64,000 bases of DNA from Bacteroidota bacterium (GTDB lineage: Bacteria; Bacteroidota; Bacteroidia; UBA4408): positions 186,001 through 250,000 of the forward strand of contig CAUJCU010000017.1 in assembly GCA_963169745.1 (NCBI GenBank), written 5' to 3'. Positions 7,727 through 55,637 of this stretch are shown here, one piece after another. Numbering within the stretch: position 1 is the stretch's first letter; each line of letters starts with the position of its first letter. The notes beneath the pieces were generated by a model. It did no database searches and was not told the origin of the DNA. It saw nothing but the letters and a program-made list of their open reading frames with translations. Position numbers and translations under genes: made by a program.

Positions 7727-8677
7727 ATGATTTTTTCAAAGACCTATACCTTATCCGAAATAGCAGCCCTCTTAAAAGCAGACTTTGAAGGAGCCCCTGA
7801 CAAACCAATTACAGGAATCAACGAAATTCATGTAGTAAATGAAGGAGACATTACCTTTGTTGATCATCCTAAATACTACGACAAAGCTCTTAATTCTAAA
7901 GCTACAACTATTATTATAAATAAACGGATGGCCGCTCCTAAAGGGAAAGCATTAATTTTTCATGAAGCCCCGTTTGATGCTTACAATAAATTGGTTAAAA
8001 GCTTTGTAAAATTTGTTCCGGCTCTTCAAAAAATAAGCCCTAATGTAAAAGTTGGAGAAGGAACAATTATACAACCCGGTGTGTTTATTGGAGAACAAGT
8101 TGTGATTGGAAAAAACTGTTTAATACATGCAAACACAACTATTTATGACAATACTATTATTGGAGATCATGTTATTATACATGCCGGTACTGTAATAGGA
8201 AGTGATGCTTTTTATTTTAAGAAAAAACCGGAAACCGGTTATGACAAAATGGTTTCAGCCGGACGTGTTATTATTGAGGATATGGTTGAGATTGGGGCGC
8301 TTTGTACTATTGATAAAGGAGTTAGCAATGACACCCTTATTGGGCAAGGAACTAAACTGGACAATCAAGTGCATATAGGGCATGATACAAGAGTGGGTAA
8401 AAACTGCTTATTTGCTGCTCAAGTTGGAATAGCAGGTGTTGTTGTTATTGAAGATGATGTTATTTTATGGGGGCAAGTAGGTGTACAAAAAGATTTAACC
8501 ATTGGAAAAGGTGCTGTAATTTTAGGAAAGTCAGGCATTTCCAAGTCAATAGCAGGTGGTAAAGTATATTTCGGTGCTCCTGTAGAAGAAGTACGTGAAA
8601 AATGGAAAGAACTTGCTCTGATTCGAAAACTGCCTGAAATTATTGAAGATATAAAAAGCCTTAAAGGACTTGAATAG
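7727..8677 (+). CDS. lpxD: UDP-3-O-acylglucosamine N-acyltransferase (LpxD family)
   Basis: 316-residue acyltransferase of lipid A biosynthesis; LpxD adds the N-linked hydroxyacyl chain from acyl-ACP to UDP-3-O-acylglucosamine in the cytoplasm. The N-terminal uridine-binding domain (GDITFVDHPKYYDKA) is followed by hexapeptide repeats of a left-handed beta-helix ([IV]-G-x4). The likely catalytic His is His219 in LDNQVHIGHD, matching His239 of E. coli LpxD. It is about 25 residues shorter than the E. coli enzyme, at the C-terminus. In Bacteroidota a second LpxD-like gene often sits beside efp, so this may be that paralogue with a different acyl substrate; the first copy is not in the window. 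Confidence 0.88.
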   Translation: MIFSKTYTLSEIAALLKADFEGAPDKPITGINEIHVVNEGDITFVDHPKYYDKALNSKATTIIINKRMAAPKGKALIFHEAPFDAYNKLVKSFVKFVPALQKISPNVKVGEGTIIQPGVFIGEQVVIGKNCLIHANTTIYDNTIIGDHVIIHAGTVIGSDAFYFKKKPETGYDKMVSAGRVIIEDMVEIGALCTIDKGVSNDTLIGQGTKLDNQVHIGHDTRVGKNCLFAAQVGIAGVVVIEDDVILWGQVGVQKDLTIGKGAVILGKSGISKSIAGGKVYFGAPVEEVREKWKELALIRKLPEIIEDIKSLKGLE

Positions 8678-8687
8678 TTCCTTTGGT

Positions 8688-10136
8688 TTAAAAATGAATT
8701 AAAGTTACCCCAATTTGTAAAAGGTACATTTCGGCCCCTTTGTTAGCTTTAAATAAGCCCGATAAGCTGTAGTTAGCAAAAAAATCAATGGGACCATAAC
8801 CTACACGGGCAGTAAGACCATATTGAAAAGGATTCAAATTATAGTCTGACAGGAAAATATCTTTCCGTTTATTACCATCTTTATAAAAAACTTGCTTACT
8901 ACGACTTCCTAATTTTAAGCCTGCTTGAGCCCCTATGGCAAAATGAAAAGTTCTTTTGTGATTAGAGTTGGAGGCAAAATGGAGCAATAGTGGAACAGTA
9001 AGATACGTGGACTTTATCATATTTTTAGTATAAGAATTAGCCGAAAGTATAGGAACTATCGAATCGTGATAAACAAGAAAATTATAGTTGTTATCCATCA
9101 TGTATCGGTTAAACTGAAAGCCAGCTCCGGTAGTTAGGGCTATATTGTTTTTATATAAACAGAAATTTTTTTCCCAAAAATTAATATTTACAACGTTACT
9201 ACGCAAAAAGTCTAAATTGTATGCCCCTGTATAAGGCAAAGTAGTGTTAAAAGGCTTGTTCCCGAATTGATTAAAACCAAACTCAACCCCTTTCCATATA
9301 GGGTTCATCTCTTTTTTTTCTTTTGCCTTTTTATTGTCAGCCTTGTCCTTGTCATCAATAATTATTACCTTTTTGTTCCCTATACTAAGGCGTGTTGTAT
9401 CAATTTTATTTCCCGGAAGGCTATCTGAGTTAAAAGAAAAATTAATTTCCGATTTGTCATTGACATGAGCAGAAGTTTCTGTTATAGAACCCGACCCGGC
9501 AATGTTAACATTTCTGCTTTCCGGTTTCCCTATATAACGAATATCACCCGAACCAGCCACGTTAGCATCCAATACTTTAATGGCATTTACTGTAGCATCG
9601 CCACTACCACTAACCGTTATTTTAACTTCATCGGCTAATAATTGGGGCGCATTTAAATCTCCACTTCCAACTATACTAGCCGTAAATTTTTGTGTATTTC
9701 CACTCAGCTTGATATCACCCGATCCGGCAAGGTCTGCTTGCAATACAACAGTTTTTACTTCAAGGGTAATATCACCCGATCCGGTTAATTTTAAAGTTAA
9801 GTCAGCACTGTTAATGGTTCCGGTTGAACTTACCTCTGAGGCTCCAAAAAGTTCAATAGCATTTATAGTTTTAGCTTCTAAATATAAAGTAATATTACCG
9901 CTTCTAAGCTTGCGCTTTATATTTAATGTACCTTTTTCGTTTTGTACATAAACAGCATCGTTAGATGGTTCAGCATAATAAATCTGATTGCCAGACTGTG
10001 TTATTACAACTTGTATGTTATCTTTAATACTAAGTTTATTAAAATCGTCTAAAGATATTTGTTGTGCAAAAAGATTTTGGGTAAGCAAAAAAACACCCAA
10101 AAAGAAAAAAACTGCTTGTGTTAAATAAGTTTTCAT
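8688..10136 (-). CDS. GIN-domain (DUF2807) protein fused to an outer-membrane beta-barrel
   Basis: 482-residue envelope protein. It has a signal peptide ending LFAQQ, then a putative auto-transporter adhesin head (GIN/DUF2807) at about residues 27-230 with at least six GSGD[IL]-type repeats that form a parallel beta-helix. Next comes a short charged linker (DDKDKADNKKAKEKKE, about 262-277). The last about 200 residues alternate polar and aromatic residues like the PorT/OMP_b-brl_2 barrels of Bacteroidota. GIN proteins usually consist of the head alone, about 230 residues. The fusion suggests a surface-displayed head anchored by its own barrel. Its 3' end lies only 10 bases from the lpxD stop (convergent). 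No enzyme function is implied. Confidence 0.8.
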   Translation of the reverse strand: MKTYLTQAVFFFLGVFLLTQNLFAQQISLDDFNKLSIKDNIQVVITQSGNQIYYAEPSNDAVYVQNEKGTLNIKRKLRSGNITLYLEAKTINAIELFGASEVSSTGTINSADLTLKLTGSGDITLEVKTVVLQADLAGSGDIKLSGNTQKFTASIVGSGDLNAPQLLADEVKITVSGSGDATVNAIKVLDANVAGSGDIRYIGKPESRNVNIAGSGSITETSAHVNDKSEINFSFNSDSLPGNKIDTTRLSIGNKKVIIIDDKDKADNKKAKEKKEMNPIWKGVEFGFNQFGNKPFNTTLPYTGAYNLDFLRSNVVNINFWEKNFCLYKNNIALTTGAGFQFNRYMMDNNYNFLVYHDSIVPILSANSYTKNMIKSTYLTVPLLLHFASNSNHKRTFHFAIGAQAGLKLGSRSKQVFYKDGNKRKDIFLSDYNLNPFQYGLTARVGYGPIDFFANYSLSGLFKANKGAEMYLLQIGVTLIHF

Positions 10137-51340: not shown

Positions 51341-51370
51341 GTGGGCTTAACATAAGCATTTAGAAAACGA
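51341..51370 (+). repeat. Left inverted repeat of the accessory island
   Basis: AGCATTTAGAAAACGA at 51355-51370 is repeated exactly, in reverse orientation, at 55606-55621. Allowing single-base gaps the match extends outward to 51341 (TTAACATA here against TTAAACATAC there), about 30 bases. The segment between the copies holds the whole HNH-RmuC operon. Confidence 0.65.
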
Positions 51371-51581
51371 TTTGCCTTTAATTGCGGTGAGCAATGGAAG
51401 TGCTTGCACTTCTGCATCCATAGAACCTTCACATGTATTAATTGCAATGGGCTTAGATGAAGCTGCTGCATTTGACTCTATTCGTTTTTCTATCGGAAAA
51501 TTTAATACCAAAAGGGAAATTGATATTGTGATTGATGCAGTTAAAAATGTTGTAAGCAGTCTTCGTTCAATGGTTTCTTGA
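51357..51581 (+). pseudogene. 3' fragment of a cysteine desulfurase (IscS/DndA type)
   Basis: 75 codons that are the C-terminal end of a cysteine desulfurase: LIAVSNGSACTSASIEPSHV contains the catalytic Cys in the loop, and the following part (GLDEAAAFDSIRFSIGKFNT then REIDIVIDAVKNVV) matches the family's last helix and strand. Full-length enzymes have about 380-400 residues with a PLP lysine that is not present here. A stop (TAA) lies four codons before 51357, just inside the left repeat, so it cannot be translated as a complete enzyme. Either a truncation at the island edge or a remnant. The same family includes DndA, the sulfur donor of DNA phosphorothioation, and housekeeping IscS; the fragment is too short to decide. 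Confidence 0.75.
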
Positions 51582-51630
51582 AATGGAAAAGAAAACAAAA
51601 TCATCTGAATGACCCAAAAACAAAAAGGTA

Positions 51631-51756
51631 ATGAAAGCCTTGATAATTCGTGCCTGTGATGTGATGCACATGCGTGAAGATGGAAAATTAGAATTCACCA
51701 AACAAGGAGACGCTTTTTTGTATTCTTCTGAAAGCGTTTTGAAGCAAAAGAAATAA
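51631..51756 (+). pseudogene. Short coding-like fragment, origin unknown
   Basis: 41 codons from ATG reading IIRACDVMHMREDGKLEFTK, then QGDAFLYSSESVLKQKK and TAA. It sits between the desulfurase fragment and the convergent 102-aa gene, one base from its stop. The residue pattern is protein-like (balanced charges, defined end) and I read it as the C-terminal tail of a lost gene. I do not recognise the family. Confidence 0.35.
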
Positions 51757-52065
51757 CTACTCCAACATTCCCAAATGAAGTAACAAACCTCTTGCAGGTG
51801 AATGTGTAATGGGAACAAAAGGTTTAAAATTTACCGTTGCAAAATCTTCAAGTTCTTTATACGCCCTGTAAACTTCTTTCAAATTCATACTCCATTCTTC
51901 TTCGGTCTTAGCGTCTAAACGGAGAAAAAACATTTCATCATTTTCAATTCTCTGAACTTCATATCGTCTGCCGTTAGAACTGGTAAACGATTTTACTTTC
52001 CTTGCCCTATCAAGAAATTCTGAAAGCGGAATAATCGGTTTTACTTTACGGAATGTCTTTGCCAT
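51757..52065 (-). CDS. 102-residue protein at the end of the island operon
   Basis: Small cytoplasmic protein without a recognisable motif: MAKTFRKVKPIIPLSEFLDR, then RRYEVQRIENDEMFFLRLD, then EEWSMNLKEVYRAYKELEDF, then a C-terminal HSPARGLLLHLGMLE. It begins 5 bases after the rmuC stop and is the last gene of five. The strand/helix alternation suggests a compact alpha-beta domain. Position only suggests that it acts with RmuC or the Bro-N protein. Unknown function. Confidence 0.75.
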   Translation of the reverse strand: MAKTFRKVKPIIPLSEFLDRARKVKSFTSSNGRRYEVQRIENDEMFFLRLDAKTEEEWSMNLKEVYRAYKELEDFATVNFKPFVPITHSPARGLLLHLGMLE

Positions 52066-52070
52066 TACTT

Positions 52071-53579
52071 CTAATTTTCTTCTGTTGGATCACCTTCCTG
52101 ACTTGCATCCAAAATCAATTTCGATTCGGCTGCTGGTAATTCTTGAACTTGTCTTAATTTTCTTTCAATTGTTCTTGTTCTAACCCCGGTGTTGTCAAGT
52201 TCTTTGGTTGCTGCCACAAGTTTATCTCTTGTTTTTTCAATGATACCTCCAAATTTTCCGAACTCGGTTTTAACTGCTCCAAGCAAGTCCCAAACTTCGC
52301 TGCTGCGTTTTTCAATTGCCAATGTTCTAAAACCCATTTGTAAACTGTTAAGCAACGCACTCAAAGTAGTAGGACCGGTTATCGTTATTTTATAATCTTT
52401 CTGCAACTGCTCAAAAAGTCCGGGAACTCTCAATACTTCGCCAAACAAACTTTCATAAGGCAAAAACATGATGCCGTATTCGGTTGTGTTAGGTGGGTCA
52501 ATGTATTTTTCTTTGATGTCTTTAGCGTTCTTTTTAATACCATTGATAAAAGCTTTACGGTATTCTTCAATTTTATCTACATCGCCTTTGTCATAAGCAT
52601 CTACCAAGGCTTCATAGTCTTCTTTCGGAAACTTAGAATCTATTGGCAACCATAATGTTTTTTCAAGGTTGTTACCATGCGGCATTTTGATAGCAAATTC
52701 AACTACTGCACCGCTACCGACTTTTGTCTTTACATTCTTCTCGTATTGCTCATTGGTTAGTAAATCTTCAATGATATTTTGTAACTGATATTCACCTAAA
52801 ACACCTCTTGATTTTACGTTGCTCATTACCTTTTTCAAATCGCCTACACTCACCGCCAAAGTTTGCATTTCGCCCAACCCTTTGTGAACGGCTTCCAATC
52901 TGTCACTTACTTGTTTGAACGATTCGCCAAGTCGCTTTTCTAGTGTTTCATTCAATTTTTCATCAACGGTTTTACGCATTTCTTCCAACTTCTTCTCGTT
53001 GCCTTCCTGCATGGTTTTCACCGATTTTTCCAAACTCATTTTGAGTTCAGAAATTTTCTCGCTGTTGGCCACATTTTGCGTTTTCTGACTTCTTTCAAAA
53101 TCTGAAAACTGTTCTCTCATGCGTTCTTTGTAATCCTTCAAAGCATCGTTCAATTCTTTTTTAAATACTTCCAGTTTTTCTTTCAATTCGTTTCTGCTCT
53201 CTTTACTGTTGGTGTCTATGCTTTTTTGAAAGTCAGCCAATTTTTCTTCAAAGGTTTTGCGTATGGCTTCTAACTTTTCTTCGTTGGATTTGGTGAGGTT
53301 GACGAGTTGCTCTGAAAATGTTTGCGTGAACTTGTTCAGTTGATTGCCAATTTCAGTTCTTAAACCTGTTGCCGTGTCTGAACTTTCCTTTCGGTTGGTT
53401 ACAAATTCATCTTTCAGATTTTTCTCAGTGTCTTTCAAATTGGAAGTAAGTGTTCCGATGGACGATTTTATTTCGGTTAATTCATTGCCTGATTCTTTCT
53501 TGCCAACTTTGAGGGTAAGGAAGATGTTTACGATTAGGAGAATCGCAAGGGATGAAAGAAATATGTAGATGATGGTCAT
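52071..53579 (-). CDS. rmuC: DNA recombination protein RmuC
   Basis: 502 residues. One N-terminal membrane helix (IYIFLSSLAILLIVNIFLTL), then about 200 residues of coiled coil (repeated KLEAIRKTFEEKL, FKKELNDALKDYKE), then the RmuC nuclease-like domain: SRGVLGEYQLQNIIEDLL near 258, LPIDSKFPKEDYEALV near 307, and the conserved YGIMFLPYESLFGEVLR near 369, followed by ITGPTTLSALLNSLQMGFR. RmuC limits rearrangements at inverted repeats in E. coli and is a frequent companion of restriction loci. Its start is 4 bases after the Bro-N stop. Confidence 0.93.
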   Translation of the reverse strand: MTIIYIFLSSLAILLIVNIFLTLKVGKKESGNELTEIKSSIGTLTSNLKDTEKNLKDEFVTNRKESSDTATGLRTEIGNQLNKFTQTFSEQLVNLTKSNEEKLEAIRKTFEEKLADFQKSIDTNSKESRNELKEKLEVFKKELNDALKDYKERMREQFSDFERSQKTQNVANSEKISELKMSLEKSVKTMQEGNEKKLEEMRKTVDEKLNETLEKRLGESFKQVSDRLEAVHKGLGEMQTLAVSVGDLKKVMSNVKSRGVLGEYQLQNIIEDLLTNEQYEKNVKTKVGSGAVVEFAIKMPHGNNLEKTLWLPIDSKFPKEDYEALVDAYDKGDVDKIEEYRKAFINGIKKNAKDIKEKYIDPPNTTEYGIMFLPYESLFGEVLRVPGLFEQLQKDYKITITGPTTLSALLNSLQMGFRTLAIEKRSSEVWDLLGAVKTEFGKFGGIIEKTRDKLVAATKELDNTGVRTRTIERKLRQVQELPAAESKLILDASQEGDPTEEN

Positions 53580-53583
53580 TTTT

Positions 53584-54411
53584 CTATTTATCTAATTTTT
53601 TCGTGCCTTTTGTTGGGGGCAAGAAATTTTCATTTGTTATCACTTTTTTTCCTGTTTTTTGTTCCAATGCGCGTCTTGCATCTTTAGCAATCTTACCGCC
53701 TTTCTTTCCCGCGATGGCATTTTGCTGAATGCCTTTTGCTTTTTCTGTTTCGGCAATTTGGCGTGTGGAGAGTTCTGCTAAAGCTGTAAAAATCAATTCA
53801 GCTTCGCTCATGTGGTCTCGTAGATTTTGTGATTTCAGGCCTTTTAAATCTTTATGCTTCTTAACTGTTAAGCCGGTCCACTCCTGATGTATAATATTGG
53901 TTAGGAAGGCAAACTCATCAGATTTTTGGACACCGCTTTCCTTCCAATAATCGGTCAGTTTATTTCGGGTTTCTTGCCCGGTCATTCGTTGCTGAATCCA
54001 TTTTTCACTTCTACCCAATTTTTGCCAATTTTCTCTGGCTCTTTCGATGCTTTGTTCAGGGTCAGCGATTTCTTGCATTCTTTCATATCCAACTTTAGCT
54101 AACCATTGTTTAAATGGCTCTGCCTTTGGTGAAGGAATGGATTGAATCAGGCGGAGTAGATTAGGCGTATCCAAACAATCTGTTGCATACTTTTTACCAT
54201 CAGCAGCTTCAAATTTCAGTTGTACGATATTTTCGTACAACTGACTTCCTTCCTTGGTGAGTTTCTTTTTCAAATCGCTCCAATACCTTTTTGGAATACT
54301 GCTTCCAGTAAGTATTTCTATCACATCTATCACTGAAAAATACCATGTTTCCGTTTTTTCATCCCAATGGGTTCTTACTTTTTTGCTTTCAAATAGTTTG
54401 ATGTTGGTCAT
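53584..54411 (-). CDS. Bro-N domain protein (phage antirepressor/DinD-like)
   Basis: 275 residues. The Bro-N DNA-binding domain covers about 1-115: LFESKKVRTHWDEKTETWYF then SVIDVIEILTGSSIPKRYW, and ATDCLDTPNLLRLIQSIPSPKAEPFKQWL. The rest resembles DinD-type C-terminal parts (IEQSIERARENW is similar; MTGQETRNKLTDYWKESGV, FAFLTNIIHQEWTGL, MSEAELIFTALAELSTRQIA), ending in a Lys-rich tail (KKGGKIAKDARRALEQKTG). Bro-N proteins regulate phage genes or respond to DNA damage. The ATG overlaps the upstream TGA by 4 bases (ATGA), a sign of coupled translation. Confidence 0.85.
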   Translation of the reverse strand: MTNIKLFESKKVRTHWDEKTETWYFSVIDVIEILTGSSIPKRYWSDLKKKLTKEGSQLYENIVQLKFEAADGKKYATDCLDTPNLLRLIQSIPSPKAEPFKQWLAKVGYERMQEIADPEQSIERARENWQKLGRSEKWIQQRMTGQETRNKLTDYWKESGVQKSDEFAFLTNIIHQEWTGLTVKKHKDLKGLKSQNLRDHMSEAELIFTALAELSTRQIAETEKAKGIQQNAIAGKKGGKIAKDARRALEQKTGKKVITNENFLPPTKGTKKLDK

Positions 54412-54611
54412 TGAATTTTAATTAAATCAGTTTTAAAATATGCTGAAACCTTTTCTTCTTTTTCATAAGGATTGAAGTATAAGTCTCCATCTTCCTTTTT
54501 ATAAACCTTTCTCGGAATTGGGTCAGTTTGCACATCTACTAAATCTCCAATAAAGATTTCATTATTGAATTTATCAAAGCATCTTTTAGTATTCAATTCA
54601 GTAGGTTTCAT
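54408..54611 (-). CDS. 67-residue protein between HNH nuclease and Bro-N protein
   Basis: Starts MKPTELNTKRCFDKFNNEIF, then GDLVDVQTDPIPRKVYKKED and ends YFKTDLIKIQ. Both its ends overlap its neighbours by 4 bases (ATGA), so the three genes are translated in coupled fashion. Its size and SH3-like beta pattern (IGDLVDVQ) would suit a small regulator or accessory binding domain, but this is only a guess. I know no family. Confidence 0.7.
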   Translation of the reverse strand: MKPTELNTKRCFDKFNNEIFIGDLVDVQTDPIPRKVYKKEDGDLYFNPYEKEEKVSAYFKTDLIKIQ

Positions 54612-55585
54612 TTTTTAAAAATATTCTTAAAATGCCAGTGAAAATTATTGGCTGAAGGAAAATAACTTTCTAAAGATGGTAAGTTGATAATTTTGTTTTC
54701 AAACGCCCTTATACTATAACTCGTTTCATCTTCCCTGAAAGTATTTGAAACAACAACTCTATAATTTTCATCAATCGTCATCAATCCCCTGTCAAATGCT
54801 CTGTGTAAGTTCGGGCATAAAGCAATTCCATTCGTTACCGTATCGTCATAACTTACACTGAATGGCACAATGTGACAAGCATCTATCATAGATACATTAA
54901 CAGTTGCATCAATCTTCATCCCTGATATGCAACATGTGTTGTTGTAAATTTTCGGAATTTCTCTTTTGAATAGGCTTCCACGAAGGAATATTTCTTCTTC
55001 GTTTTTTTGTTCGAGTAATTTCTTGATTTCCTGTCGATATTCTTCGGATGGTTCTTTAAGAATTTTATTTTCTATGTCGTCAAATATACTTTGCTGAGCG
55101 CCTTCTATATTGTTGAAATTGCCTTTACTGTTTGGAAAATATTCATCCAATAAAAACTGCATCAAAATTTCATTGCTCTTCTTATCTTTCATTAATGTGC
55201 ATAACGCATCGTCAATGAATGCACAATCAACTGCAACATTCAGATTGGCAAGACTTCGCATGGATGCTGATAGGTGAAGAATATTTTCAAAACCTGGATT
55301 TGGAATGAGTTTCCAGAATTTATCGCTTGTTAAATGATAAAAGGGTAAAGCGAAACGGCAATCGTGATTTGTTGTAACAAGTGAATTCCAATTTGATATG
55401 AAGAGCGCTACTAACTCAGGGGTGATATAAATTCTTTGGTTGTTGTTAACTCCATTTTGGAATGTTTGTAATACAGAAATAAGCAAAACGGGTTTGTGTG
55501 GGGCAACTCCATGCGCCCTGTCAATTCGTAGCTTTTTGAATGCTTTGAGATATTTTTGTAAAAGTTCTTGTAGCTTGTTCGTCAT
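54608..55585 (-). CDS. HNH_2 endonuclease with APHKP-type N-terminal domain
   Basis: 325 residues, first gene of the operon. The C-terminal HNH_2 nuclease is clear at about 215-275: CCISGMKIDA, DACHIVPFS (first His), NGIALCPNLHRAFDRGLMTI (Asn and second His). The N-terminal half starts LRIDRAHGVAPHKPVLLISV and has HDCRFALPFYHLTSDKFWKL. The APHKPxLLL pattern recalls the sulfur-binding domain of phosphorothioate-dependent McrA-type restriction enzymes, in which the same order (binding domain, HNH) is found. A type IV-like nuclease that senses modified DNA is the best reading; specificity is inferred. Start is fixed: an in-frame stop lies 4 codons upstream. Confidence 0.85.
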   Translation of the reverse strand: MTNKLQELLQKYLKAFKKLRIDRAHGVAPHKPVLLISVLQTFQNGVNNNQRIYITPELVALFISNWNSLVTTNHDCRFALPFYHLTSDKFWKLIPNPGFENILHLSASMRSLANLNVAVDCAFIDDALCTLMKDKKSNEILMQFLLDEYFPNSKGNFNNIEGAQQSIFDDIENKILKEPSEEYRQEIKKLLEQKNEEEIFLRGSLFKREIPKIYNNTCCISGMKIDATVNVSMIDACHIVPFSVSYDDTVTNGIALCPNLHRAFDRGLMTIDENYRVVVSNTFREDETSYSIRAFENKIINLPSLESYFPSANNFHWHFKNIFKK

Positions 55586-55637
55586 TGAGATACTGGTCTA
55601 TAATTTCGTTTTCTAAATGCTGTATGTTTAATGACAT
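55524..55637 (-). pseudogene. Truncated start of a gene resembling dndC
   Basis: A 37-codon frame starting ATG at 55637: MSLNIQHLENEIIDQYLND, then EQATRTFTKISQSIQKATN and TGA. The first 19 residues resemble the N-terminus of Bacteroidota DndC proteins, where a YLxDxRPW-type segment leads to the SGGKDST PAPS-reductase motif. After residue 19 the frame runs into the HNH gene, 62 bases of which it overlaps in another frame, so everything beyond is chance coding. It also covers the right inverted repeat (HLENE, like HLEND at the left). Resemblance is from memory and short. It could instead be a leader peptide. Confidence 0.3.
55606..55637 (-). repeat. Right inverted repeat of the accessory island
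   Basis: Reverse complement carries AGCATTTAGAAAACGA (55621-55606), identical to 51355-51370, preceded by a similar but gapped stretch up to 55637. It lies 20 bases upstream of the HNH start codon, in the leader of the operon. Confidence 0.65.

Follow-up and report, generated by a model that had tools for sequence, protein, structure and literature searches.

A predicted phosphorothioate-dependent nuclease on the frame of a Dnd phosphorothioation island in a Bacteroidota genome

A run of five minus-strand genes was analysed in a 64,000-nucleotide stretch of a Bacteroidota genome (lineage UBA4408; GCA_963169745.1, contig CAUJCU010000017.1, positions 186,001 to 250,000), referred to below as the window. 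The genes encode, in order of transcription, an HNH nuclease with an N-terminal sulfur-binding domain (SBD-HNH), a 67-residue protein (p67), a Bro-N protein, an RmuC-domain protein and a 102-residue protein (p102) (Table 1). These genes form a mosaic for which a Dnd phosphorothioation island supplied the frame. Very probably that island was re-occupied, the SBD-HNH gene having replaced the dnd core, and the locus is now predicted to cut phosphorothioate (PT)-modified DNA.

Table 1. Genes, gene remnants and repeat arms at the locus (positions in the window)
Feature	Position	Strand	Description
SBD-HNH	54608-55585	minus	predicted PT-dependent type IV restriction endonuclease
p67 (67 aa)	54408-54611	minus	small protein paired with the SBD-HNH of the window
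Bro-N	53584-54411	minus	PADLOC candidate family PDC-S13; apparently an individually mobile passenger
RmuC-domain protein	52071-53579	minus	N-terminal hydrophobic anchor and coiled coil; Pfam RmuC 254 bits
p102 (102 aa)	51757-52065	minus	uncharacterised; 3'-terminal gene in several defence operons
dndC remnant, codons 1-24, MSLNIQHLENEIIDQYLNDEQATR	55566-55637	minus	similarity to DndC N-terminus
C-terminal remnant of DndA/SspA-type cysteine desulfurase, codons 322-393 and stop	51363-51581	plus	5' part deleted
Frameshifted remnant of a tiny HTH_17-like gene	51582-51758	plus	alignment to L103/L104
Inverted-repeat left arm	51355-51370	plus	native dndA codons make up its last 8 nt (GAAAACGA)
Inverted-repeat right arm	55606-55621	minus	dndC codons 6-11

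Remnants of dnd genes in the window

Ahead of the nuclease gene, a scrap of dndC was identical to the DndC N-terminus at 21 of 24 residues (87.5%; E 2e-9, and E 1.7e-12 in a focused search), and this scrap contains, in another frame, the start codon of the nuclease gene (55585). Codons 1-24 are all that is left of dndC, no match to TIGR03183 being obtained in this genome (99.96% complete). The plus-strand desulfurase remnant matched the PADLOC profiles SspA (77 bits) and DndA (73 bits) and was 84.7% identical over 72 residues to the intact desulfurase of a related island, L104 (E 1e-33); dndA is likewise intact in two further relatives, L105 and L147. Positions 51608-51738 of the helix-turn-helix (HTH) gene remnant aligned at 85-89% identity to L103 and L104 with a frameshifting deletion, and the intact L104 copy matched HTH_17 weakly (E 0.002). 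A KilA-N gene, which in L103, L104 and L105 stands between the HTH gene and dndA, is missing from the window. Compared with a Dnd system, the locus lacks a complete dndC and retains dndA as a 72-codon C-terminal fragment.

Related islands

A p102 pattern scan of 84,980 genomes gave seven loci, and one more (G613) was obtained by a profile search of 365 genomes. Four related islands have a common layout, in which a cargo followed by RmuC and p102 converges on dndA, with RmuC cut to 36 codons in two of them. The frame is shared and the cargo is variable, consisting of a dnd operon in two islands, of SBD-HNH and p67 in one, and of SBD-HNH with Hachiman in one. In L105, DndB is directly followed by RmuC and p102, which converge on KilA-N and an intact DndA. 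The operon of L103 comprises dndC, DndD/PbeC, DndE, a DndH-like gene, DndB, a 36-codon RmuC stump, p85, p102 and Bro-N, and converges on KilA-N and an internally deleted dndA. These two Dnd/Pbe islands share with the window the dndC start, the RmuC-p102 tail and the convergent KilA-N/HTH and dndA side; unlike them, the window has lost dndC-D-E-B and its dndA is truncated, so no PT can be made. The genomes of L103 and L105 both contain dndC.

The remaining two islands carry the nuclease. L104 consists of dndC codons 1-32, SBD-HNH (80% identity to the window), p67 (68%), the RmuC stump, p93 and p102, converging on HTH, KilA-N and an intact DndA; dndC is also absent from its genome. L147 (3839-10007) consists of decayed dndC codons 1-32, SBD-HNH (64%), HamA, HamB, RmuC (68%, directly after HamB) and p102 (55%), converging on DndA, so that a Hachiman pair is embedded in the same island frame. 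A dndC scrap precedes SBD-HNH in all three close islands (E 1.7e-12 in the window, 1.4e-20 in L104, 3e-6 in L147); the 13 more distant SBD-HNH loci tested have none. The junction at about dndC codon 32 is common to L104 and L147, which implies that at least one replacement is old; the scrap in the window is shorter. At the other 12 dndC-like loci sampled, RmuC-p102 was not found alongside, which confines the frame to one Dnd subgroup. A further locus, L109, retains the end of RmuC and a truncated p102.

In L103 (4112-7759), dndD and the dndE/H gene are each split into two frames, by decay or by assembly error. The protein that replaces RmuC past its first 36 codons (93 residues in L104, 9727-10008; 85 residues in L103, 9751-10008) is 97% identical between these two distant metagenome-assembled genomes; neither Pfam nor PHROGs gave a match to it, nor did PADLOC to the L103 copy.

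The SBD-HNH nuclease

A sequence-only reading had rightly proposed a defence-type locus whose HNH nuclease belongs to the modified-DNA class. In the HNH protein, a sulfur-binding domain occupies about residues 5-152 and the HNH domain about residues 205-275. A profile of four homologues matched SBDHga1 (PDB 8h0l) over residues 10-152 (E 1.4e-21), and the sulfur pocket retains H30-K31 and P81, which agree with the HK/P residues reported for other SBDs (PMC6224610, PMC7461809). HNH_2 scored 48 bits, and the HNH motif is intact, with H238, N259 and H261 invariant. Binding of PT-DNA and restriction of dnd+ plasmids have been published for SBD enzymes (PMC6224610, PMC7461809); the HNH protein is probably a PT-dependent type IV restriction enzyme. 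With SprMcrA, EcoWI and ScoMcrA (NF045808) it shares the N-terminal SBD, the C-terminal HNH domain, a length of about 300 residues, the HK and P (though not the Y) pocket residues and the character of a solitary nuclease that needs no partner. It differs from them in its setting, which is the wreck of a dnd locus and an operon with p67, Bro-N, RmuC and p102. An AlphaFold2 model built from two sequences was unusable (pLDDT 37).

The best SBD-HNH match in a 395-genome sample of the phylum (45%; L065, 4810-9395) converges on an intact DndA-type desulfurase 2.5 kb away, with a Uma2-like gene in between. Elsewhere (L067, 9099-18896), SBD-HNH ends another defence operon, downstream of AIPR, DUF4420, a Z1-like protein and a GHKL-type ATPase.

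A reverse scar

In one locus (L132, genome G106), an intact dndC-D-E/H-B operon is preceded, at a distance of about 130 nt, by an N-terminal SBD fragment with an in-frame stop (8662-8982). This is the mirror image of the scar in the window. On these gene remnants, the functions of PT writer (dndC) and PT cutter (SBD-HNH) appear to have displaced one another, the direction differing between lineages. PT-dependent nucleases and Dnd systems were already known to be seldom neighbours (<3.6%, with unresolved cases; PMC7461809). The open-access literature searched contained no account of dndC/SBD swaps.

Organisation and other genes of the operon

The five minus-strand open reading frames were confirmed on rechecking of their coordinates, with 4-nt overlaps at HNH/p67 and p67/Bro-N and gaps of 4 nt from Bro-N to RmuC and 5 nt from RmuC to p102. 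Pfam assigned HNH_2, Bro-N and RmuC among the five proteins; for p67 and p102, nothing scored above cut-off in Pfam, NCBIfam or PADLOC. The proposal that the five genes form one conserved module failed, the order HNH-p67-BroN-RmuC-p102 being met in this genome only. In the 20 loci retrieved for homologues of the HNH gene, p67, Bro-N, RmuC and p102 are lacking, and such a module was rejected. Partial orders do recur, HNH-p67-...-p102 in L104 and RmuC-p102 in L105, L109 and L147.

Bro-N matched the PADLOC candidate family PDC-S13 (Bro-N/DinD-like) over its full length (416 bits, residues 2-271); here it sits as a passenger between p67 and RmuC. Copies 81-93% identical occur at differing positions in L103, L104 and L105, and one, alone and interrupted, in G003. 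By its varying placement Bro-N thus appears to be an individually mobile passenger. It is flanked by near-identical 13-mers, AATGACCAACATC at the p67/Bro-N junction (54399-54412) and AATGACCATCATC at the RmuC start (53567-53580), and this pair is possibly the trace of its insertion. In a congener, the copy (L054, 155-1027; about 88-93% identity) is broken by a short inserted stretch that contains stops.

The RmuC protein is probably a nuclease anchored in the membrane. The effector of Shield is also an RmuC protein (ShdA; PMC10270631), and both are membrane-anchored RmuC-domain proteins in a defence locus, in the window as predicted from sequence alone. Shield has been described from Pseudomonas only, whereas the RmuC of the window is tied to dnd, SBD-HNH and Hachiman operons and to p102.

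For p67, the single other copy found is in L104 (68% identical), directly behind its SBD-HNH; a search of the 394 other genomes sampled from the phylum gave none. p102 is also the last gene of an McrB-McrC operon in L107 and of a PLD-SNF2 helicase operon in L108, and in L106 it adjoins type I restriction and GmrSD-like genes. PHROGs gave no match to p102 above cut-off, and no copy of p102 was found in plasmids, phages or viral contigs. Its AlphaFold2 model (pLDDT 84) matched no fold in the PDB (best E 0.13). By its gene neighbourhoods, p102 would represent an undescribed small family that ends several defence operons.

Alternative explanations

The sequence-only reading had suggested that the locus might be a mobile cassette with terminal inverted repeats carrying a five-gene defence module, an explanation that now appears very unlikely. 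The 16-bp inverted repeat on which it was based is exact. Its extension to about 30 bp could not be upheld: the ungapped match ends at 16, and one 1-nt gap gives 22 of 23 bases. No other inverted match within 5 kb in the window is better than the gapped repeat, and next to the flanking genes of relatives the island's own genes are either missing or without a match. Against this, 6% of 2,123 dinucleotide shuffles of the window equalled the gapped repeat score, 0.8 exact 16-mer inverted pairs within 5 kb are expected per shuffled window, and 40% of shuffled windows have at least one. Both arms also fall on or against the dndC and dndA remnants, which that reading had overlooked. The right arm is dndC coding sequence retained in the sister island L104, and the left arm is absent from L104, which contradicts a role for the arms as ends of a mobile unit. 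Half of the left arm (8 of 16 bases) is native dndA codons, and the other 8 bases, without counterpart in the relatives, are either a chance match or a second dndC-derived scrap joined at GAAAACGA. The open reading frames include no transposase, and the exact gene order is unique to this genome. No empty site was found in relatives, where Usp and MiaE are not neighbours in this order.

A random pile-up is a likelier alternative, if still an improbable one: a variable defence hotspot beside a cysteine-desulfurase gene would have brought SBD-HNH next to dnd scraps by chance, with no bearing on phosphorothioation. It is favoured by the acceptance of Hachiman into the same frame, by the insertion of Bro-N in several places and by the general exchange of cargo among defence islands (PMC12707154). 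However, in each of the three re-occupied islands the newcomer reads sulfur-DNA, the dndC junction is the same in L104 and L147, and the same pair of antagonists was exchanged in the opposite sense in L132. Hardly credible, by comparison, is a living PT-gated system in which SBD-HNH, RmuC and p102 cooperate with PT writers in the manner of DndFGH or SspE, the dnd genes being supplied from elsewhere. An intact dndA does stand next to SBD-HNH in L104 and L147, but dndC is missing from this genome and from that of L104, the dndA of the window is a fragment, and a PT host would not survive SBD-HNH enzymes, which according to published work cut PT-DNA (PMC7461809).

Re-occupation of a Dnd island, which we consider very probable, has several points to its disadvantage. 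Over codons 1-17, the dndC scrap differs from that of L104 by five synonymous and zero amino-acid changes, which would mean either that the leader is still under selection or that there were two separate replacements. Desulfurases of the dndA type resemble the housekeeping IscS/NifS, so the label dndA rests on context. Compared with SprMcrA, EcoWI and ScoMcrA, the nuclease has L at position 80 (LP for the YP of published SBDs), as does the solved SBDHga1, and it matches NF045808 (PT-DNA_restrict) over its full length but below the cut-off (118.2 versus 180 bits); its dependence on PT is itself a prediction. In the 395 genomes, 12 carried a dndC-like gene and about 20 a full-length SBD-HNH, with 1 shared against about 0.6 expected, numbers too sparse to speak of avoidance. 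Several of the relatives are, moreover, metagenome-assembled genomes.

Proposed mechanism

The ancestral island would have consisted of dndC-D-E(-H)-B-RmuC-p102 converging on KilA-N/HTH and dndA, and would have carried out DNA phosphorothioation. The scars show that an SBD-HNH nuclease took the place of the stretch from about dndC codon 32 to the end of dndB, with the old dndC 5' end serving it as a leader. In this genome, p67 and the mobile Bro-N lie behind the nuclease, KilA-N has been lost and dndA is reduced to its last 72 codons. When PT-modified DNA enters from Dnd+ cells, for example as a plasmid, an island or phage DNA, the SBD may recognise its sulfur and the HNH domain may then cut it. 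RmuC, a probable membrane-anchored DNase, would degrade or hold cut or foreign DNA, and p102 may be an accessory.

The host would be safe from its own SBD-HNH because no PT writer (dndC) remains in the genome. Writer and cutter would be lethal together at shared sites, and a single exchange within dndC, which would kill the writer while installing the cutter, would therefore avoid the lethal intermediate.

Discussion

Replacement of cargo in defence hotspots is already known (PMC12707154). The locus resembles the Immigration control region and other hotspots described there in that defence systems are exchanged between shared anchors. What sets it apart is that its anchors belong to the earlier system, whose product is the predicted target of the newcomer. 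New here are the antagonistic pair, the dndC stump as a leader and the p102 family.

A wider proposal is possible and is put forward tentatively. DNA-sulfur writers and cutters would swap at one island site in both directions, through an exchange inside dndC or the SBD gene, the lethal pair never coexisting; p102 would be an unrecognised accessory common to many defence operons with no other relation to one another (Dnd, SBD-HNH, Hachiman, McrBC and PLD-SNF2 helicase).

If the island was re-occupied as proposed, one that marked its own DNA would have been turned into a weapon against the mark, the nuclease sitting on the dnd stump with its start codon within dndC. One route to the known rarity of PT nucleases and Dnd systems as neighbours would now be readable in sequence, and p102 would add a new family of small proteins linked to defence. 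It would thereby become possible to test how antagonistic epigenetic defence evolves, both as to whether an island flips between marking and anti-marking and as to whether one exchange is enough.

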